This document shows positions 1,927 through 12,878 of a DNA stretch of 33,293 nucleotides, piece by piece. The notes under the pieces were generated by a model. The model made no database searches, was not told where the DNA came from, and was given only the letters and a program-made list of their open reading frames with translations. The position numbers and the translations under genes were made by a program. Position 1 is the stretch's first letter. Each line of letters opens with the position of its first letter. The DNA comes from Verrucomicrobiota bacterium (GTDB lineage: Bacteria; Verrucomicrobiota; Verrucomicrobiia; Opitutales; Opitutaceae): the NCBI GenBank assembly GCA_018239675.1, contig JAFEGX010000093.1:1-33293 (forward strand). Reading direction: 5' to 3'.

Positions 1927-2580
1927 ATGTCGAAACTATTTCCCAAATCGGCCAACAAGCTGCCGCTCCAGATCATCGTTTACCTGGTGGTCCTTGCCGG
2001 AGTGGTGACCGCCGGCGCGACGTACTACATGACGCCGAAGTACACGCGCGTGGGCTATGCGCCGGTGCAGCCGGTGCCCTACAGCCACGCCCTGCACGCC
2101 GGCCAGCTCGGCATCGATTGCCGCTACTGCCACAGCAACGTCGAGAAGTCCGGCGTGGCCAACCTGCCGACCTCCCAGACGTGCATGAACTGTCACAACC
2201 AGGTGAAGAAGGACAGCCCGCTTCTCGCCGTGGTGCGCCACAGTTACGAGACCGGTGAGGCCGTGCCGTGGGTGAAGGTCCACCAGACCCCGGATTACGT
2301 CTATTTCAACCACGCCATCCACGTGAACCGCGGCGTCAGCTGCGTCGAGTGCCATGGCAAGATCAACGAGATGGAGGTCGTGACCCATGCCCAGCCGCTG
2401 AGCATGGGTTTCTGCCTCGACTGCCACCGCAATCCGGCCCCGCGCGTCCGCGAGCCCGGTGACGTGTTCAACCTGGATTCGGCGACGATCGCCCAGAAAT
2501 CGGGCCTCGAGGCCGCCCACAAGTTCCTGAAAGACCGGAACATCAAACCTCCGCAAAGCTGCTCCGGCTGCCATCGATGA
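1927..2580 (+). CDS. actA: Alternative complex III pentahaem cytochrome c subunit ActA
   Basis: The 217-aa protein has one N-terminal membrane segment (about 14-34) and five CxxCH haem sites: C65-H69, C86-H90, C139-H143, C163-H167 and C212-H216. A membrane-anchored pentahaem cytochrome as first gene of a set followed by an Fe-S/molybdopterin-like protein and NrfD proteins is the signature of alternative complex III, the quinol:cytochrome c oxidoreductase that replaces bc1. ActA faces the periplasm and carries electrons from ActB toward soluble or attached cytochrome c. Its TGA overlaps the actB ATG by four bases (2577-2580), so the two are translationally coupled. The last haem site sits one residue from the C-terminus. 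Confidence 0.95.
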   Translation: MSKLFPKSANKLPLQIIVYLVVLAGVVTAGATYYMTPKYTRVGYAPVQPVPYSHALHAGQLGIDCRYCHSNVEKSGVANLPTSQTCMNCHNQVKKDSPLLAVVRHSYETGEAVPWVKVHQTPDYVYFNHAIHVNRGVSCVECHGKINEMEVVTHAQPLSMGFCLDCHRNPAPRVREPGDVFNLDSATIAQKSGLEAAHKFLKDRNIKPPQSCSGCHR

Positions 2581-5500
2581 AACGCGAATTTCACCATCCC
2601 GCACCGTCCGAACGCGAACTCGCCGGTCCCAAGTACTGGCGGAGTCTCGACGAGCTCGCCGAGACTCCCGGCTTCAAGGCTCAGCTTGAGCGCGAGTTCC
2701 CCGAGGGCGCCTCGGAGCTCGCCGGCGTGGATCGCCGCCAGTTCGCCAAGATCATGGCGGCCTCGTTCGCCCTCGGCGGCCTCGGCCTCGCCGGCTGCCG
2801 CCGTCCCGAGCAGTACGTCCTCCCGTATGGCAAGTCCGTCGAGGGGGTCATCCAGGGCCTGCCGCTCTATTTCGCCACGGCGATGCCGCTGCGCAACTCC
2901 GCCATCCCGCTGCTCGCCGAGACCCACCAGGGCCGGCCGACCAAGCTCGAGGGCAACCCGACCTACGCGCCGCACGGCGGCGCCACGTCGCTCGTCGCCC
3001 AGGCGTCCATCCTCGACCTTTACGATCCGGACCGGGCCACGACGCACACCGTGAAGGGCGCGCCGGCCACCTCGGCCGACATCGCCGCCCGGCTCGCCGC
3101 CGTGGGGCAGGGGGCCGCCGCCAATGACGGCGAGGGCCTCGCGTTCCTTGCCGAGGAATCGTCGTCCCCGACCCGCGCCCGCCTGCTCGCCCAGCTCCGC
3201 CGCAAGTTCCCGCGCGCCATCTGGGCCGAGTACGAGCCCGTGCGCGACGAGCCCCCGGCCGTCGCCGCCCGCGCCTGCTTCGGCCGCGACGTCAAGCCGC
3301 TGTACCGCTTCGCCAAGGCCAAGCGCATCGTCAGCCTCGACGCCGATTTTTTCCACGCCGAGTCCGGCAGCCTCTACTATGCCCGCGAGTTCGCCAAGGG
3401 GCGCCGCGTGACGAAGCCGGAGGACCCGATGAACCGCCTCTACGTCGTGGAGAGCGGCCTGTCCCTCACCGGCAGCATGGCGGACCACCGCCTGCGCCTC
3501 GCCTCGAGCCACCTGACCGCCTTTGCCGCCGCCCTCGCGAAGCACGTCATGGGCTCGTCGGCGCTCGACAGCCTGGCGCTGGGCCTCGAGTTCAAGGACC
3601 AGGACAAGTGGCTCGCGGCGTGCGCCAAGGATCTCGCGGACCATCGCGGCGAGTGCCTCGTGGTCGCCGGCGCGCACCAGCCGCCGGTCGTGCACGCGAT
3701 CGTCTACGCGCTGAACTCCTTCCTCGGCAATTTCGGCTCCACGGTCGATTTCGTGGCCGTCCCCGCCAATCCCGCCTCCAGCATCGAGGCCCTTGCCACC
3801 GCGATCCGCGGCGGCGTCGTGAAGACCCTCGTCATCCTCGGCGGCAATCCGGCCTACAACGCCCCGGCGGACCTGGACTGGCCCGCGCTGCAGAAGTCGG
3901 TCGCCGAGGTCTTCCGCTACGGGTACTACGCCGACGAGACCTCGGCCCTGGCCGGCACGCACATCGCGGCCACGCACTATCTCGAGTCGTGGGGCGACGC
4001 CCGCACGGTGGACGGCACCATCGTCCCGGTGCAGCCGATGATCCTCCCGCTCTTCAACGGGCTGACCGAGCTCGAGGTGCTCGCGCACCTGCTCGGCGAG
4101 GCGAAGACCGACCCGTACGGCCAGGTTTACACGACCATCACGGCGCTCGCCGGCACGGCCGACCCGGATAAGTTCTTCCGGCAGTTCCTGCATGACGGCC
4201 TGCTGGCCGACAGCTCGTACGAGAAGGTTGCGGTCAGCTACGACCCCAACGGCGCCGCGGCGCTGATGGCCTCCGTTCCGAAGGTCGAGACGCTGTCCCG
4301 CGACCATCTTGAGGTCCGCTTCGTCACGGACCACAAGATGGACGACGGCCGCTTCGCCAACAACGGCTGGCTGCAGGAGTGCCCGGATCCGATCACGAAG
4401 ATCGCCTGGGACAACGCCATCCTGGTCAGCCCGAAGCTAGGCAAGGAGCTGGGCGTCGACCCGAAGGGCTCGCTGCTCGAGGTCGCCCGCAAGGAGGAGA
4501 ACGAGTTCTTCATCGGCAAGGAAAACAGCCACATCTACGAGCTGACCGTGAACGGCCGGAAGGTCCGCGGCCCGGTGCACATCCAGCCCGGCCTCGCGAA
4601 CTACACCGTGGTGGTGGCGCTGGGCTACGGCCGCAGCGTCACGGGCCGGGTCGGCACCGGGGCGGGTTTCAGCGGCTACGCGATCCGCACGAGCGGCGGG
4701 ATGGGCTTCGCCACCGGCGCCAAGCTCGCCGACTCGGGTGAGCGCCGCCTGCTGGCCAACGTCCAGGAACACTGGTCGATGGAGGGCCGCGACATCGTGC
4801 GCGAGGCCAATTACGACGAGTACCGAGAGAATCCCGGCTACGTCGACGAGATGGGCATCGAGTCCCATTCGCCGGCGATCTACGGCGCGGACAACACCCC
4901 GGCGAATGACGACAAGCTCTCGCCGGAGGAACGCGCCAAGGTCGCCGCCCAGCGCTCGAAGGACATCCCGCGCGGCGGCTCCCTCTACACGACGCCGAAG
5001 TTCGACGGCGTGCACCAGTGGGGCATGTCGATCGACCTCAACACCTGCATCGGCTGCAACGCCTGCGTGGTGGCCTGCCAGGCCGAGAACAACATCCCGA
5101 TCGTCGGCCGGGACCAGGTCCAGCGCGGCCGCGAGATGCAGTGGATCCGGCTCGACCGGTACTATTCGGACGGCCTGGCCGACGCCGCGGCCTTTGGCGG
5201 GCCGGGCAACGCCGAGCTGCCCGAGGATCCGCAGATTTCCCTGCAGCCCGTCGCCTGCCAGCAATGCGAGCTGGCCCCGTGCGAGGTGGTGTGCCCGGTC
5301 AACGCGACCGTGCACGACGACGAGGGCATCAACACGATGGCCTACAACCGCTGCATCGGCACCCGTTATTGCGCGAACAACTGCCCGTACAAGGTGCGGC
5401 GCTTCAACTTCTTTGACTTCAACCAGCGCCAGCTGGACAGCCTCTACCTCAGCCAGCTCGGCCCGAAGGGGATGCCCGAGCTCGTGCAGATGGTGAAGAA

Positions 5501-5968
5501 CCCGGAGGTCACCGTGCGCATGCGCGGCGTGATGGAGAAGTGCACGTACTGCGTGCAGCGCATCCAGAACGGCAAGATCCAGTACAAGGTGAAGATGGCC
5601 CAGGCGGGCATGCCCGGCGAGGTGGCCGTCCCGGATGGCACGATCAAGACCGCCTGCCAGCAGGTCTGCCCGGTCGAGGCCATCGTGTTCGGCAACATCC
5701 TGGACACCGAGAGCGCCGTCTCCAAGGCCAAGGCCCGCGAGCAGGACTACGCGCTGCTGGGCTACCTGAACATCCGCCCGCGCACGACCTACCTGGGCAA
5801 GCTTCGCAATCCGAACCGCGACATGCCGGACTATACCGCCCTCCCGCTCAGCCGGGTCGAGTACAACCGGAAGAACGGGCACGGCGAGCATGGCGCCGGG
5901 CCCGGCGCGCATCATGAAGGGGGACACGCGCTGCGCGATGCGGCCAAACGTTTCGGAGGACTTAGCTA

Positions 5969-5969
<1 letters not shown>
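2577..5969 (+). CDS. actB: Alternative complex III iron-sulfur subunit ActB (molybdopterin-like plus ferredoxin-like fusion)
   Basis: The 1130-aa protein has an unusually placed Tat-type signal: RRQF at 53-56 and a lipobox LAGC ending at C74. Residues from about 90 to 700 resemble the molybdopterin oxidoreductase fold; in characterised ACIII this part binds no molybdenum cofactor. The C-terminal part carries the Fe-S ligands: C824, C827, C830, C834; C894, C897, C902, C906; C926, C932, C936; C989, C992, C1027, C1031. These 15 cysteines fit three [4Fe-4S] and one [3Fe-4S] cluster, as known for ACIII. The C-terminus is His/Gly rich ([16 protein letters not shown]). Stop and next start overlap as TAATG. 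Confidence 0.95.
5955..5960 (+). promoter_or_regulatory. Ribosome binding site of actC
   Basis: GGAGGA lies eight bases before the actC ATG at 5969. It is one of few strong Shine-Dalgarno matches in the window, sits inside the end of actB, and supports the ATG that overlaps the actB stop. Confidence 0.75.
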
Positions 5970-7396
<1,427 letters not shown>

Positions 7397-7408: not shown

Positions 7409-7942
7409 ATGGCTGCCTCCTCCTATGGCCTGATCGCCACCTTCGAGACGCCCGCGGCGCTGTACCACGCGGCGGAGAAGGTGCGCGACGCCGGTTACAA
7501 GAACTGGGACTGCATCACGCCGTTCCCCGTGCACGGCCTGGACAAGGCGATGGGCCTCCGGCGTTCCATCGTGCCGCGGATCTCGCTCGCGGGCGGCATC
7601 ACCGGCTTCTGCACCGGCATGACGATGATCTGGTGGACGGGTGCGGTCGACTACACCCTCACGGTCGGCGGCAAGCCGCTGTTCAGCCCGATGTTCGCCT
7701 TCCCGATCAGCTATGAGCTGACGATCCTGTTCACCGCGTTCGCGACGATCGGCGGCATGTTCTTCCTGAACGGCCTCCCGATGCACTACCACCCGGTGCT
7801 GAAGTACGACCAGATCAAGCGGGGCATGGACGACACGTTCTTCATCGTCATCGAGGCGCGCGACCCGCGCTTCAACCTCGCCAACACCCGGACCCTGCTC
7901 GAGCAGGCCGGCGGAACGGAAGTCAAGGAGCTGGAAGCCTGA
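7409..7942 (+). CDS. actD: Alternative complex III subunit ActD (DUF3341)
   Basis: The 177-aa membrane protein begins with a short soluble domain (GLIATFETPAALYHAAEKV, then CITPFPVHGLDKAMGLRRS). Two hydrophobic hairpin segments follow around residues 55-75 and 98-118, the second reading LTILFTAFATIGGMFFLNGL. The third part ends in a soluble tail. This is the DUF3341 architecture of ActD, a small non-cofactor subunit that contacts ActC and ActF. It lies between actC and actE with gaps of 12 and 3 bases. The family match is clear from sequence and order. Confidence 0.93.
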   Translation: MAASSYGLIATFETPAALYHAAEKVRDAGYKNWDCITPFPVHGLDKAMGLRRSIVPRISLAGGITGFCTGMTMIWWTGAVDYTLTVGGKPLFSPMFAFPISYELTILFTAFATIGGMFFLNGLPMHYHPVLKYDQIKRGMDDTFFIVIEARDPRFNLANTRTLLEQAGGTEVKELEA

Positions 7943-7945
7943 GCC

Positions 7946-8578
7946 ATGCGCAACGTCTACCTCGTCACTGCGTTCGTCGTGGTCCTCGCGGTCTCCATCC
8001 TCGGGTTCCGCGGCACGCCTTTCACCAAGCCGCCGATCGACGTCTTCCCGGAGTGGGCCTTCCCCGGCATGAAGCGCCAGCCGAAGCCCTATCCGCAGGG
8101 CGCGAGCAGGTTCTTCGCCGACGGCCGCGCCGACCGTCCGCTGCCGCCCGGCGTCGTCTCCCGCGACCCGCTGCGCAACGACTACGCCCTCTACGAAGGC
8201 AAGGCCGCCGACGGTTCCTGGCTTCGCGGCTTCCCGTCGGCCCTCACCGTCGACGCCAAACTCATGGCCCGCGGCAAGGAGCGTTTCACCATCTACTGCG
8301 CGCCCTGCCACGGCGCCGTCGGCGACGGGAACGGCATCACGAAGCAGTACGGCATGGGCGCCACGCCGACCTACCACGACCCGCGCCTGCGCGACATGGC
8401 CGAGGGCGAGATCTTCAACACCATCACGCACGGCAAGAACAACATGCTCTCGTATGCGGACAAGCTCCTCCCCGAGGACCGCTGGGCCGTGATCCTCTAC
8501 GTCCGCGCCCTCCAGCGCGCGCAGACCGGGACCGTGTCCGACGTGCCGGCTGACCATCGAAAGGAGCTCGGCCTCTAA
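7946..8578 (+). CDS. actE: Alternative complex III monohaem cytochrome c subunit ActE
   Basis: The 210-aa protein has an N-terminal membrane or signal segment (YLVTAFVVVLAVSILGF, 5-21), a linker containing the TPFTKPPIDVFPEW-type motif usual for ActE, and one haem site C118-A-P-C121-H122. KQYGMGATPTYHD and NMLSYADKL offer candidate methionine axial ligands. ActE is one of the two c-type cytochrome subunits of ACIII on the periplasmic side. The stop TAA overlaps the actF ATG by one base. Confidence 0.94.
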   Translation: MRNVYLVTAFVVVLAVSILGFRGTPFTKPPIDVFPEWAFPGMKRQPKPYPQGASRFFADGRADRPLPPGVVSRDPLRNDYALYEGKAADGSWLRGFPSALTVDAKLMARGKERFTIYCAPCHGAVGDGNGITKQYGMGATPTYHDPRLRDMAEGEIFNTITHGKNNMLSYADKLLPEDRWAVILYVRALQRAQTGTVSDVPADHRKELGL

Positions 8579-9852
8579 TGACCTCCCAAGCTGCCACCGC
8601 CCCCGCCGCGCTCGCGCCGGAAGCCGCCAACGCCTCGGCGGCCACGAAGGCCCTCACGGCCGGCCTCGTCGGCCTCGCGCTCACCGCGCTCGGCGTCGCC
8701 TTCTCGCCTGACAAGCACGGGCCCGTGATGTCGTACCTCGTCGGCGTCTGCTACTGGACCGCCATTGCGATCGGCATGCTCCTGATGGTGATGATCCACC
8801 ACATCGTCGACGCCTCCTGGTCGGTGGTGATCCGCCGCCAGTGGGAGCACGGCCTCGCGGCCTTCAAGTGGCTCGGCCTGCTGTTCGTGCCGCTGCTCAT
8901 CCTCGCCTGGATGAAGCCGGGCTACGTCTGGCCGTGGATGGACCTCAATCACCCGCTGCACGGCCACGGCACGGTCGGCGCGGACGTCCTTTACCAGAAG
9001 AAGTCCGGCTTCCTGAACCTGCCCATGTTCACCGGCATGACGGCTGGTTTCTACCTCATTTGGATCTGGCTGTCGGCCCGCCTCCGCAAGGCGTCATTCA
9101 CCCAGGACGCCGACGGCAATGCCGGCTGGACCAGCACCAACCGCGTGACGTCGGCCTTCGGCATCCCGCTGGCGGCGCTCTCGCTGACGTTTGCCGCGAT
9201 CTACTGGATGAAGAGCCTCGAGTACCACTGGTTCTCGACCATGTACGGCGTGTGGTTCTTCGCGAACTGCGTCCGCGGCGCGCTCTGCAGCGCCGTGGTC
9301 ATCATGGTCTGGCTCTACCGCCGCGGCGACCTCAAGGGCGTCCTCAACACCAATCATTTTCACAGCATCGGCCAGCTGATGCTCGCGTTCACGGTGTTCT
9401 GGGCGTACGTGACCTTCTCGCAGTACTTCCTGATCTGGAACGCCAACGTGCCCGAGGAGACCTTCTGGTACAACATCCGCGAGCTGAATCACGACGGCTC
9501 GACGAACCAGTGGTGGTGGGTCGGCCTCGCTCTGCTCTTTGGCCACTTCGTGCTGCCGTTCTGCGCGCTGCTCTCGTACCGCTACAAGGTCACGCACCAC
9601 ATCATCCGCCGCATCGCGTTCTGGGTGCTGACCGTGATCCTCGTCGACATCTGCTACAACACCCTGCCGGCCCTCAAGGACGCGCACGGCGACGCCCAGC
9701 CGTTCCTCTCGCTCAATCTCCTGTGGGTGCTGACGTCCGTCCTCGGCGTCGGCGGCGTCTGCGTCTGGGCCTTCCTCCGCAGCCTGGGCACCACGAAACT
9801 CATTCCGATCCGCGACCCGCGGATCACCGAATGCCTGACTCACCATGAGTGA
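8578..9852 (+). CDS. actF: Alternative complex III second NrfD-like membrane subunit ActF
   Basis: The 424-aa protein has about ten predicted membrane segments and is the shorter NrfD homologue of ACIII. Recognisable parts are MLLMVMIHHIVDASWSVVIR, GHGTVGADVLYQKKSGFLN, LMLAFTVFWAYVTFSQYF and GHFVLPFCALLSYR. ActF pairs with ActC in the membrane and has been proposed to provide a proton path. No haem-binding motif is expected or seen. It starts inside the actE stop (TAATG) and overlaps the next gene by eight bases, consistent with a single transcript. Confidence 0.94.
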   Translation: MTSQAATAPAALAPEAANASAATKALTAGLVGLALTALGVAFSPDKHGPVMSYLVGVCYWTAIAIGMLLMVMIHHIVDASWSVVIRRQWEHGLAAFKWLGLLFVPLLILAWMKPGYVWPWMDLNHPLHGHGTVGADVLYQKKSGFLNLPMFTGMTAGFYLIWIWLSARLRKASFTQDADGNAGWTSTNRVTSAFGIPLAALSLTFAAIYWMKSLEYHWFSTMYGVWFFANCVRGALCSAVVIMVWLYRRGDLKGVLNTNHFHSIGQLMLAFTVFWAYVTFSQYFLIWNANVPEETFWYNIRELNHDGSTNQWWWVGLALLFGHFVLPFCALLSYRYKVTHHIIRRIAFWVLTVILVDICYNTLPALKDAHGDAQPFLSLNLLWVLTSVLGVGGVCVWAFLRSLGTTKLIPIRDPRITECLTHHE

Positions 9853-10141
9853 TTCCCCCGCCAAGTCCGCCCCGCTCATCACCGTCCTGACGGTGCTGGC
9901 CGGATTCGCGCTGTTCGTGCTGGTCGTGGACAAGTTCTACCTGCCGCACCAGACCGGGGCCTTCACCGGTGACGGCATCCGCACGGCCGAGCAGCGCAAG
10001 GAGAACCTCGCCAAGCTGCACGAGAAGCAGGGCCGGCAGGCGGTCACCTACGCGTGGGTCGACCAGAAGGCCGGCGTCGTCCAGCTCCCGCTGGACCGCG
10101 CGATGGAGCTGACGCTCCAGCACTACGCGTCGAAGCCCTAA
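9845..10141 (+). CDS. 98-aa single-span membrane protein in the ACIII operon (possible ActG-like or assembly factor)
   Basis: The protein has one membrane segment near the N-terminus (LITVLTVLAGFALFVLVVD, 11-29), then a charged helix (TAEQRKENLAKLHEKQGRQ) and a conserved-looking tail, YAWVDQKAGVVQLPLDRAME. I recall WVD..AGVV.IP..RAM tails on small proteins of ACIII/oxidase clusters, next to SCO-type or CoxB genes. ActG of characterised ACIII is also a small single-span subunit, but I cannot confirm homology. It overlaps actF by eight bases and precedes the CcoN-like gene by 24 bases. Reality of the gene is nearly certain; the function is inferred from context only. Confidence 0.8.
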   Translation: MSDSPAKSAPLITVLTVLAGFALFVLVVDKFYLPHQTGAFTGDGIRTAEQRKENLAKLHEKQGRQAVTYAWVDQKAGVVQLPLDRAMELTLQHYASKP

Positions 10142-10165: not shown

Positions 10166-11593
10166 ATGACCACCGCTTCCACTGCCGCCCCGACGGCCGA
10201 AGTCACGGAGATCGACGCCACGGCGCGTTGCCCGCTGCTTCTGCTCCTCGGCTTCGCGCTCCTCTGGCTCCTCGTGAGCGGGGCGCTCGCGCTTGTCAAC
10301 CTGGTCCAGCTGACCACGCCGACCTTTGCCGCCGCCTGCCCGGTCATGACCTACGGCCGGGCGCAGGCGATGCAGGAGTCCGCCTTCATCTACGGCTGGG
10401 CCGCCAATGCCGGCCTCGCGGTCACGCTCTGGATCCTCGGCCGCCTCAGCGGTGCGCCGCTCCGCTCGCTCAACTGGACGACCGCCGGCGCGGTCTTCTG
10501 GAACCTCGCGCTGCTCCTCGGCCTGGTCGGCATCGCCACCGGCGACGCCACGGTGCACGGCTGGATCCAGCTTCCGCGCTACGTGCTGCCGCTGCTCCTC
10601 GTCGCCTACGGCGCGATGGCGGTGCCGGGCGTCCTCGCCTGGACCGGCCGCCGGCAGGACACGACCTTCGCCTCCCAGTGGTACGGCGTCGCGGCGCTGT
10701 TCCTCTTTCCCTGGCTCTTCTCGATCGCCCAGATGATGCTGGTGTTCTTCCCGACCCGCGGCGTGCTGCAGCCGCTGATTGCCGGCTGGTTTGTCCAGGG
10801 CGCCTGGACGCTGTGGCTCGCGCCGCTGATGCTGGCCGCCGCCTACTACCTGCTGCCGAAGATCTCGGGCAAGGCGATCCGGCACTATGAGTTTGCCGCG
10901 CTGAGCTTCTGGACGCTGCTCTTTGTCGGCGCCTGGACCGGCGGCCGCCATTTCGTCGGCGGGCCGATCCCGGCCTGGGTGGCCACCGTCGCCGGCGTCT
11001 CCTGCGCGCTGCTGCTCTTCCACTACATCGTGGTCGCCCTAAACCTGGGCGGGGCCTTCCGCCCGGCGGGCAGCACGGTGCTCTGGTTCGTGGGTGCGGG
11101 CCTCGGCGCCTATCTTCTCGGCGGCGTGCTTGACGCGGTGACCTCGATCCGCGGGGTCGCGATGATCACGCAGTTCACGCACTTCAGCACGGCGCAGACC
11201 CAGCTGGCGGTCAGCGGCGCGTTCTCGCTCACGCTCTTCGGCGCGATCTACTTCCTCGTGCCCCGCCTCACGGGCCGGGCCTGGCCGTCGCTCTCCCTGA
11301 TCCGCGGCCACTTCTTTGCCGCGCTGCTCGGCACCGCGGCGCTGGTCCTCGCGCTCGCGGTGGCCGGCCTCATCCAGGGCCGCGAGCAGAACAACGCCAC
11401 GGTGGAATTTTCGGCCATCGCCGTCCACGTGAAGCCGTGGCTGCTCGTCGCCACCGCCGGCCAGGCGGTGCTCCTGATCGGCAATCTGCTGCTGGCCGTC
11501 CACCTGCTGCGCGCCGTCTGCCCGTTCCGGCAGGCCGCGACTGCGCCCGCGACTTTCCGCCAGCCTCCGACGATGGAGGCGTCCGTGTCATGA
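10166..11593 (+). CDS. CcoN-like cbb3 oxidase subunit I homologue lacking the haem/CuB histidines
   Basis: The 475-aa, roughly 12-span protein aligns with CcoN along much of its length; the helix around the last ligands aligns without gaps over about 41 residues, ending in IYFLVPRLTGR. Against the ligand positions of Pseudomonas stutzeri CcoN, as I remember them: H60 is Q70 (GRAQAMQESAF), H207 is Q211 (WFVQGAW), H257 is R261, H258 is kept as H262 (GGRHF), H347 is Q344 and H349 is Q346 (STAQTQLA). The cross-linked tyrosine position is G255. The protein therefore should bind neither haem b, haem b3 nor CuB in the normal way and cannot reduce oxygen like cbb3. The frame is intact with normal codon use, so it is not decaying. 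It overlaps the CcoO-like gene by four bases. A structural or scaffold role is inferred. Confidence 0.88.
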   Translation: MTTASTAAPTAEVTEIDATARCPLLLLLGFALLWLLVSGALALVNLVQLTTPTFAAACPVMTYGRAQAMQESAFIYGWAANAGLAVTLWILGRLSGAPLRSLNWTTAGAVFWNLALLLGLVGIATGDATVHGWIQLPRYVLPLLLVAYGAMAVPGVLAWTGRRQDTTFASQWYGVAALFLFPWLFSIAQMMLVFFPTRGVLQPLIAGWFVQGAWTLWLAPLMLAAAYYLLPKISGKAIRHYEFAALSFWTLLFVGAWTGGRHFVGGPIPAWVATVAGVSCALLLFHYIVVALNLGGAFRPAGSTVLWFVGAGLGAYLLGGVLDAVTSIRGVAMITQFTHFSTAQTQLAVSGAFSLTLFGAIYFLVPRLTGRAWPSLSLIRGHFFAALLGTAALVLALAVAGLIQGREQNNATVEFSAIAVHVKPWLLVATAGQAVLLIGNLLLAVHLLRAVCPFRQAATAPATFRQPPTMEASVS

Positions 11594-12219
11594 AAAACGG
11601 CCTAACGTTCTTCCTCGGTCTGTTCCTCGCGCTTGCGCTTGCGTTCACCGGCATCGTGCTGGGCTCGCACGCGCAGCTCGGCAACCTCGCGCCCTATTAC
11701 GACGAGAATGAGGGCAAGGCCTTCCCGGAGCGCATGCCCGGTATCGCCGCCCGCGGCCAGCTGGTCTACCAGGACCTCGGCTGCGCCGCCTGCCACACGC
11801 AGCAGGTGCGCCGCCCGGACTTCGGTTCCGACAAGGCCCGCGGCTGGGGCGACCGCCAGAGCGTGGCCCGCGATTATGTCAGCCAGGCGGCCGTGCAGCT
11901 CGGCGACAACCGCGTCGGCCCGGACCTGGCCACGTTCGGCTCCCGTCCGCTGGCCGTCGACGCCGACCGCCTCGCCAAGTATCTTTACGAGGGCCATGGC
12001 GGCATGCCGGGCTACCCGTTCCTCTTTGCCGACCGGAAGATCGTCGGCGAGCGCGCGGCCAACGCCCTCAATGTCCCGGCCAAGCCCGGCCGCGAGATCG
12101 TGCCGACCCCGCGGGCCGTGGCGCTGGTGGCCTACCTCCAGAGCTTGAACAACGCCTACGAATACCCTGAAGCCCGCCCGGTGGAACCCGAGGCGGAGAA
12201 GAAGGAGGGTGGGAAATGA
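11590..12219 (+). CDS. ccoO: CcoO-like monohaem cytochrome c (cbb3 subunit II homologue)
   Basis: The 209-aa protein has an N-terminal anchor (LTFFLGLFLALALAFTGIVLG, about 5-24), a haem site C65-A-A-C68-H69 followed by TQQVRRPDFGSDKARGWGD, then RVGPDLATFGSR and GGMPGYPFLF with M139 as likely axial ligand. These are CcoO/FixO landmarks (CxxCHxQxxRP, GPDLxxxG, MPxYP). Unlike its membrane partner upstream, the cofactor site here is intact. It starts at the ATG overlapping the previous stop and itself overlaps the next gene by four bases. It probably docks on the CcoN-like protein and carries one haem c in the periplasm. Confidence 0.92.
   Translation: MKNGLTFFLGLFLALALAFTGIVLGSHAQLGNLAPYYDENEGKAFPERMPGIAARGQLVYQDLGCAACHTQQVRRPDFGSDKARGWGDRQSVARDYVSQAAVQLGDNRVGPDLATFGSRPLAVDADRLAKYLYEGHGGMPGYPFLFADRKIVGERAANALNVPAKPGREIVPTPRAVALVAYLQSLNNAYEYPEARPVEPEAEKKEGGK
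12202..12208 (+). promoter_or_regulatory. Ribosome binding site of the terminal cytochrome c gene
   Basis: AAGGAGG lies seven bases before the ATG at 12216, inside the end of the CcoO-like gene. It is a full anti-SD match and supports the overlapping start. Confidence 0.75.
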
Positions 12220-12878
12220 GCGACCAGCTTCCCCCCGACCCGCGCCTCGAGCAGGCCGGCGCCTCCGACGAGAGCCTGCTGGCCGTCCACGAGAAGGCCC
12301 TCGGCAAGAAGCCCGAGGATGGCGCGCATTACCGCCTGCTGCCGCTCATGCTGCTCTTCGTGTTCAGCGGCCTGATCTTCTACGCGGGCACGTACCTGAA
12401 TCACTTCTCGGGCCATTACAGCGCGGCCATCTTCAACGAGAACGCCCATCCGGCCAAGGCCGGCGCCGTCGCCAAGGTCGACCCGCTCGTCCTCGGCAAG
12501 AAGAACTACGACCTCGTCTGCACGACCTGCCACCAGGCCACGGGCATGGGCGTCCCCGGCGTCTATCCGCCGCTGGGCGGCTCCGAGTGGGTCAACGGTT
12601 CGGACGAGCGCCTGATCCGCATCGTCCTCTATGGGCTCAAGGGACCGATCAAGGTCAAGGGCGCGGACTTCGGCGCCGCCGCTATGCCCGTCTTCGGCCA
12701 GGTGGCCGGCTCAGGTTACAACTGGAGCGACGAGAAGATCGCCGCCGTGCTGACCTATGTCCGCCAGTCCTTCGGCAACAACTCCCCGGCCATCACCGCC
12801 GAGCATGTGTCCGCCATCCGCGCCAAGGAAGGCGACCGCAAGGAATGGTCGCAGGAAGAACTGCTGAAGATTCCGTAA
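12216..12878 (+). CDS. Membrane-anchored monohaem cytochrome c, CcoP-like position
   Basis: The 220-aa protein has a cytoplasmic N-terminus of about 40 residues, one membrane span (LLPLMLLFVFSGLIFYAGTY, 41-60) and one cytochrome c domain with C102-T-T-C105-H106 and likely axial M157 (AAMPVFG). CcoP normally has two haems; here only one CxxCH is present, with MGVPGVYPPLGGSEWV after it as in oxidase-attached cytochrome c domains. It is the last gene of the respiratory operon and is followed by a strong terminator. It may shuttle electrons from ActA/ActE or the CcoO-like protein to an oxidase encoded elsewhere. The C-terminal tail is charged. Confidence 0.9.
   Translation: MSDQLPPDPRLEQAGASDESLLAVHEKALGKKPEDGAHYRLLPLMLLFVFSGLIFYAGTYLNHFSGHYSAAIFNENAHPAKAGAVAKVDPLVLGKKNYDLVCTTCHQATGMGVPGVYPPLGGSEWVNGSDERLIRIVLYGLKGPIKVKGADFGAAAMPVFGQVAGSGYNWSDEKIAAVLTYVRQSFGNNSPAITAEHVSAIRAKEGDRKEWSQEELLKIP

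Follow-up and report, generated by a model that had tools for sequence, protein, structure and literature searches.

A CcoN-like oxidase core apparently stripped of its metal ligands, and retained behind the ACIII genes, in many Verrucomicrobiota

The stretch of DNA analysed here as a whole (33,293 nucleotides, hereafter "the window") lies on contig C141 of a Verrucomicrobiota genome of 3.85 Mb that is 95.5% complete. Its actABCDEF genes, which encode alternative complex III (ACIII), are found directly upstream of a gene for a CcoN-like protein and point in the same direction, and the features on which the present account relies are the following:

1927..2580, + strand: ActA, the pentahaem cytochrome c of ACIII, with five CxxCH motifs
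2577..5969, + strand: ActB of ACIII, named from its position, synteny, length (1130 aa) and cysteine motifs
5969..7396, + strand: ActC, the NrfD-like ACIII subunit (PF03916, E 2e-23)
7409..7942, + strand: ActD of ACIII (PF11821, E 1e-65)
7946..8578, + strand: ActE, the monohaem cytochrome c of ACIII
8578..9852, + strand: ActF, an ACIII membrane subunit without a Pfam match above the cut-off, named from position, length and synteny
9845..10141, + strand: a small protein of 98 aa with one hydrophobic stretch, between actF and ccoN, without a family match
10166..11593, + strand: the CcoN-like subunit, 475 aa with 12 long predicted helices (COX1 Pfam match of 124 bits, altered ligand columns, AlphaFold model)
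11590..12219, + strand: a CcoO-like cytochrome c with one CxxCH and a hydrophobic N-terminal helix (FixO, E 1e-8)
12216..12878, + strand: a monohaem cytochrome c with one CxxCH and a hydrophobic stretch, weakly CcoP-like (Cytochrom_C, E 1.7e-9)

The frame at 10166-11593 is open from ATG to TGA and is coupled to what follows it, as the ATGA at 11590 overlaps the ccoN stop with the ccoO start and the ATGA at 12216 does the same for ccoO and the next cytochrome gene, in agreement with the intact frame and coupled operon of a preliminary description of this DNA made from its letters. The CcoO-like cytochrome also matches the NCBIfam ccoO and PRK14487 models, and the second monohaem cytochrome c matches TIGR00782 (E 1e-4), in each case under the cut-off; the hydrophobic stretch of the latter is a probable membrane anchor.

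When the CcoN-like protein was compared with the solved structures using phmmer, five matches were obtained, every one of them a cbb3 CcoN (9g6b, 6xkw, 3mk7, 9g83 and 8smr; E values of 5e-16 to 4e-14), and the alignment to 3mk7 spans nearly its full length, which bears out the CcoN homology originally proposed. In the printed alignment, H60, H207, Y251, H257, H258, H347 and H349 of 3mk7 stand opposite Q70, Q211, G255, R261, H262, Q344 and Q346 of the window's protein. In this P. stutzeri CcoN, we take H60 and H349 to be the low-spin haem b ligands, H347 to be the haem b3 ligand, H207, H257 and H258 to be the CuB ligands and Y251 to be the cross-linked tyrosine. Both of the low-spin haem b histidine positions (Q70 and Q346) are thus changed, as is that of haem b3 (Q344), and a single member of the four-residue CuB/tyrosine set is kept (H262), with Q211, R261 and G255 being changed; these are the same letters that had led to the claim of five altered ligands out of six and a glycine at the tyrosine position. 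Furthermore, T219 and S244 of the intact relatives, which presumably form part of the cbb3 K proton path, are both alanine in the window's protein, and each of them is seen in 2% of its near clade versus at least 90% of the intact forms.

Two trivial explanations of such a pattern can be set aside: an alignment artefact is ruled out by the intact members of the same family, 40 of 40 of which show H/H/Y/H/H/H/H in these columns, and an assembly or sequencing error is ruled out by the sister species, which carry the same states. Each of the 11 nearest sequences (L009-L018 from the same genus, plus the named record L005), which share 70-76% identity with the window's protein, carries alterations at six of the seven sites; the letters are exactly the window's in ten of them, and one (L009) has an A at the Q70 position.

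Protein searches gave matches in 189 of the 200 genomes sampled from the family and in 124 of the 387 sampled from the phylum, the weaker ones in these sets being ordinary CcoN-type genes; all of these genomes, several of which are MAGs, are Verrucomicrobiota, and one wider contig scan gave three near relatives. From 180 loci, 167 distinct matching CcoN-like open frames were retrieved, and the 14 loci that gave none are either repeats of others or more distant COX1 genes (L001, L003). The 167 sequences fall into 119 altered ones and 48 that have all seven residues, a ratio that should not be read as a population estimate, given that the loci were in part selected by the search and that 120 were picked by hand to cover genera. 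The intact 48 comprise 40 sequences of an ACIII-linked clade and 8 ordinary or other cbb3-type outgroup genes, and more than 50 genera are represented among the altered forms (55 genus labels for the 119 sequences; as many as three of these labels belong to named records and might duplicate coded genera).

Read in the order 70-211-255-261-262-344-346, the site letters of the altered sequences are QQGRHQQ in 26 and AQGRHQQ in 8 of the 119, and include AHTSRRW, ANTSRRW, HSGQKFL, FEAADVQ and more, although the columns of the most diverged rows (e.g., L138, or L108 with its gap) may sit a residue or two off. Replacement "mostly by glutamine", as it had initially been put, is therefore right for the window's clade and wrong for other lineages, where A, S, N, R, W, F, E and others are found. 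The equivalents of Y251 and H257 are lost in all 119 altered sequences, whereas H258 remains in 54, H207 in 25, H60 in 14, and H347 and H349 in 6 each. Four of the 119 still have the two low-spin haem b ligands and six the b3 histidine; these make up 8 different sequences, and the other 111 are without the b3 histidine as well as without a complete haem b pair. Relatives with histidines at these positions, which the preliminary description had named as grounds against its reading, do exist (the 40 sequences of the ACIII-linked clade, ~32-41% identical to the window's protein), and the altered state is shared by 119; in our view, they do not refute it, as they have the appearance of the functional state that gave rise to the altered forms.

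On the strength of these sequence comparisons, the CcoN-like protein is very probably cofactor-free, i.e., it would bind no haem b, haem b3 or CuB. One could argue that one or two haems, or some other metal, are still held by means of unusual ligands (H262, H339, H382 or the glutamines) and that some redox chemistry persists, as 50 of the 56 nearest altered sequences still have H262, H382 is invariant in an 80-row alignment and four altered sequences of other lineages retain both low-spin haem ligands. H382 is, however, equally conserved in the intact forms and is not among the six ligand positions, the site letters of other lineages differ and are often non-coordinating (A, S, L, W, F), and the CuB position is taken by R261 in all 56 near relatives, where a positive side chain next to a metal would be unlikely, all of which makes retention of this kind rather improbable in our estimation.

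The AlphaFold model of the CcoN-like protein, built with 80 family sequences, has a pLDDT of 93.4, a pTM of 0.92 and twelve long helices, and the top seven Foldseek matches to it are CcoN chains (3mk7_A with TM 0.87/0.89 and an rmsd of 2.7). The superposition of a predicted model, suggested beforehand as a check, has thus returned a confident CcoN fold. The model of a differently altered relative, L133 (HSAQKFI), is likewise close to 3mk7_A (pLDDT 87.6, pTM 0.88, TM 0.82/0.90). It would seem that the fold of an oxidase core has been kept, as far as prediction goes, in a protein that, judging by its residues, is no longer an oxidase. NO reductases rank directly behind the CcoN chains as the next structural matches, and non-O2 members of the haem-copper superfamily have altered CuB ligands, both of which might speak for an NO reductase-like or otherwise diverged haem-copper enzyme with a different metal site; NO reductases and such enzymes, however, keep three haem histidines, the positions of which are Q70, Q344 and Q346 here, and we find this alternative scarcely credible.

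The window's protein passes COX1 Pfam with its 124 bits against a cut-off of 34.8 and fails the NCBIfam ccoN equivalog with 98 bits against a cut-off of 583, and the intact ACIII-linked L067 fails the latter as well (250 bits), so that the equivalog model would call neither of them a true CcoN. The Pfam pass constitutes an annotation hazard per se, by which the window's protein could be miscounted as a high-affinity oxidase.

As for selection, Nei-Gojobori dN/dS ratios between altered sequences range from 0.06 to 0.33 (median 0.12, 21 pairs) and those between intact sequences of the ACIII-linked clade from 0.04 to 0.25 (median 0.12, 10 pairs), with one altered pair and three intact pairs giving no ratio owing to saturated dS and three outgroup pairs lying outside the medians. 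The replacement residues are also conserved among the 56 nearest altered sequences (R261 in 56, Q211 and G255 in 53 each, Q346 in 50, Q344 in 47 and Q70 in 36), and 69 positions are common to the intact and altered classes. Low dN/dS and conserved glutamines were what the preliminary description had proposed to look for, and its view of a gene that is maintained and not decaying is sustained by the equal medians and by the conservation of the new residues.

In two altered-intact sister pairs, the ratio rises to 0.46 and 0.34, and in altered-intact pairs the CcoN-like values exceed those of ActF, ActC and CcoO from the same pairs (all frames were read from stop to stop, which leaves their ends approximate, and upstream extensions inflate some of the ActF and CcoO values). 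Such an increase would fit relaxation upon loss that was followed by renewed constraint; given these two ratios, slow decay may be taking place in some lineages. Taken to its extreme, this would make the gene a decaying, translated and functionless remnant of an oxidase operon, and the altered clades do sit on longer branches; the median of 0.12 shared by altered and intact pairs, R261 in 56 of 56 near relatives and the occurrence of altered forms in more than 50 genera nevertheless tell against such a remnant, which we hold to be very improbable. Loss of catalytic residues, purifying selection and wide conservation, the marks by which a pseudoenzyme is recognised, are all found here.

Phylogenies were built without the ligand columns (FastTree for 167 rows and a quick IQ-TREE search for 69 rows), and in both of them altered tips nest within intact clades: L178 (HHSARHH) adjoins the intact L065, L063 (HHQRHHH) adjoins the intact L171, and L118/L120 (HNSQRYH) group with the intact L114, L119 and L127. 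Six state changes are seen in the 69-row tree, at least four of which are forced by the starred branches, and, as histidine ligands, once lost, would hardly be expected to return, these are to be understood as separate losses; several separate losses of the ligand sites are demanded by the trees. Their exact number is loose because the backbone nodes are weak and the two trees disagree on some rows (L089 and L122/L126/L137 are placed differently by FastTree and IQ-TREE); the trees also contain long branches. A single ancient loss was considered as well and is ruled out for the sampled rows, one altered clade having a p-AU of ~1e-45 in an AU test performed with knowledge of the first tree. The intermediates suggest an order of events in which the CuB/tyrosine site was lost first and the haems later, the least altered of them, L178 and L063, coming from MAGs that are 68% and 65% complete.

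ActF is encoded upstream in 75 of the 76 altered loci with enough room and in 34 of the 41 intact-state ones, the seven without it being six outgroup genes and the putative L070 fusion, and the CcoO-like protein and the second cytochrome are encoded downstream in every one of the 68 altered loci that offer room. Each of both cytochromes has its one CxxCH in all 68, so the loss of ligands from the core is not accompanied by a loss of haem c motifs from the cytochromes. A COX1 gene like that of L133 and L134 starts 1.4-2.3 kb past ccoN, after both cytochromes, in 12 of the 16 altered loci of the same class with 5 kb of room; Pfam COX1 and COX2 were confirmed at L133, L134 and L139, and COX3 at two of them. 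Going by gene order, the ligandless trio in those loci stands between ACIII and an ordinary A-type-like oxidase. The downstream COX1 gene is also present at one of the two intact loci of that class, and in the window's own family it is found at a single altered locus out of 41, at a distance of 7 kb, and at none of the 17 intact ones.

A conserved operon would equally be expected of a protein with a regulatory or assembly role, serving the assembly of ACIII or of the cytochromes, binding a quinone or lipid, or acting as a sensor, with no relay of electrons involved, and ACIII does have membrane subunits devoid of redox cofactors in the NrfD-like ActC and ActF, according to PMC8076601. Both cytochromes, however, co-occur with the core, and in none of the 68 altered loci with room has either of them lost CxxCH, and a COX1 gene follows in 12 of 16 loci of the one class; the kept motifs and the following COX1 point toward electron transfer, and we judge a role of this kind unlikely. 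The small protein between actF and ccoN, for which Pfam and NCBIfam searches gave no match, is present in 41 of the 57 altered loci with 8 kb of upstream room and in 25 of the 35 intact-state loci with the same room (outgroup loci included), and it is a candidate for a new subunit.

Three other COX1-family genes are present in the window's genome, including an open frame of 829 aa in which the CcoN-type site is intact, and at least one further COX1-family gene is found in each of the 86 altered genomes tallied (the tally of altered and intact genomes together covers 129 less seven of unread ligand state, namely G017, G172, G020, G040, G331, G346 and G101). Other COX1-family genes also occur in 34 of the 36 intact genomes tallied, so this redundancy does not set the altered genomes apart, and the idea that it permitted the loss is suggestive only; PF00115 covers NO reductases too, and another family member is not always an oxidase. 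G200 and G083 are the only tallied genomes with a single COX1-family gene, and both have the intact ACIII-linked form, which weakly suggests that this form is a real oxidase; G331, outside the tally, likewise has a single such gene. The intact group of L105, L067, L177 and their relatives seems to constitute an ACIII-linked cbb3-like oxidase of its own.

The reading that we favour as a whole, with moderate confidence, is that of a dead oxidase core acting as a membrane scaffold in a relay from ACIII to other oxidases. The ancestor would have been a working cbb3-type oxidase, encoded with ACIII and probably bound to it, the CcoO and membrane cytochrome c of which received electrons from ActE. 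Another oxidase would then have taken over the reduction of oxygen, and the CcoN active site would have eroded, with the 12-helix body being retained and anchoring the two cytochromes beside ACIII. The resulting subcomplex might comprise the CcoN body, the CcoO-like protein, the second monohaem cytochrome and perhaps the small single-helix protein, and electrons would pass from menaquinol to ActC/ActB, ActA, ActE, the haem c of the CcoO-like protein, the membrane cytochrome c and, finally, the other oxidase. The gene for the latter would lie immediately downstream in related families and at some other place in the remainder, the window's own family included, where the electrons would need to reach separately encoded oxidases. 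What we infer from the evidence above is that no cofactors are bound, that the protein is physically assembled with ACIII and that electrons flow in this direction. Put more broadly, we are inclined to think that the haem-copper oxidase (HCO) superfamily holds a large, repeatedly evolved cofactor-free class serving as the hub of an ACIII-cytochrome relay, in which the CuB/tyrosine site was lost first and docking was kept.

Among characterised systems, cbb3 CcoN (3mk7, 6xkw, 8smr, 9g6b) has the same 12-helix fold and a CcoO-like gene next to it, but the window's protein is devoid of five of the six ligands, of the cross-linked tyrosine and of the two residues that we take to belong to the K path, and its genes lie behind those of ACIII. 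The intact ACIII-linked CcoN-like proteins of the window's family and order (e.g., L067 and L105) share the operon order and fall into the same larger clade as the window's protein; unlike the window's protein, they have all six histidines and the tyrosine. ACIII gene clusters often precede oxidase genes, and a direct passage of electrons from the cytochromes of ACIII to an oxidase has been proposed or supported, as set out in PMC5928083. In the ACIII-caa3/aa3 supercomplexes of Rhodothermus marinus and Flavobacterium johnsoniae, the partner is a working A-family oxidase, whereas here, at the level of genes, its place, or the place between it and ACIII, is taken by two cytochromes and a ligandless C-family-like core. 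A precedent for a lost cofactor within ACIII is offered by the ActB1 domain, which is molybdoenzyme-like and has no prosthetic group (PMC5928083), although its fold is unrelated and it is periplasmic.

As for operons of this type, acidobacterial ACIII-caa3 superoperons are described in PMC8407424, and the genes following ACIII in Verruconatronum are given as "caa3 (2)" in PMC13274419. No account of a ligandless CcoN was found in the open-access literature, a body from which reviews on HCO evolution and on ACIII may be missing; what is presented here is a pseudoenzyme from the haem-copper superfamily within a known type of ACIII operon, the use of which was not found described. Among respiratory enzymes, haem-copper oxidases belong to the best studied, and it is the metal sites that define them; a fold that occurs without the metal ligands in more than 50 genera, having arrived there several times, separates the structural role of an oxidase core from catalysis. 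The sequences also make up a natural series, from the working enzyme through half-dismantled intermediates to an apparent cofactor-free scaffold, and, if the relay reading is true, yet another way of wiring ACIII to an oxidase would be added to those already known.

Several individual loci and genomes are worth mentioning in their own right. In several genomes of the genus label f10/g67, the phylum search apparently returned no CcoN-like match, and those listed have only weak ActD-like matches (E 1e-9 to 1e-19); ACIII may be reduced or replaced there. L070 (genome G013) is a 999-aa open frame with an intact CcoN-like domain, possibly a fusion, and no ACIII genes were recognised in the stretch fetched around it. 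One in-frame TGA lies inside the matched stretch at each of G094 (L150) and G547 (L122); near-normal-length frames are present there as well, and the TGA may sit at one end of the stretch or be an assembly slip. Two ligandless copies, L073 and L074 (CRGRHQQ and AQGRHLQ), are found in the same genome, G148, and a one-sequence search of the L073 flanks found no separate ActB, ActD or ActF frame. Finally, the genus labels g20 and g41 each include intact and fully altered forms that are far apart in the tree (L056 versus L072/L172/L176 for g20, and L069 versus L050/L164/L169 for g41), hinting at the replacement of the operon or its transfer between lineages.
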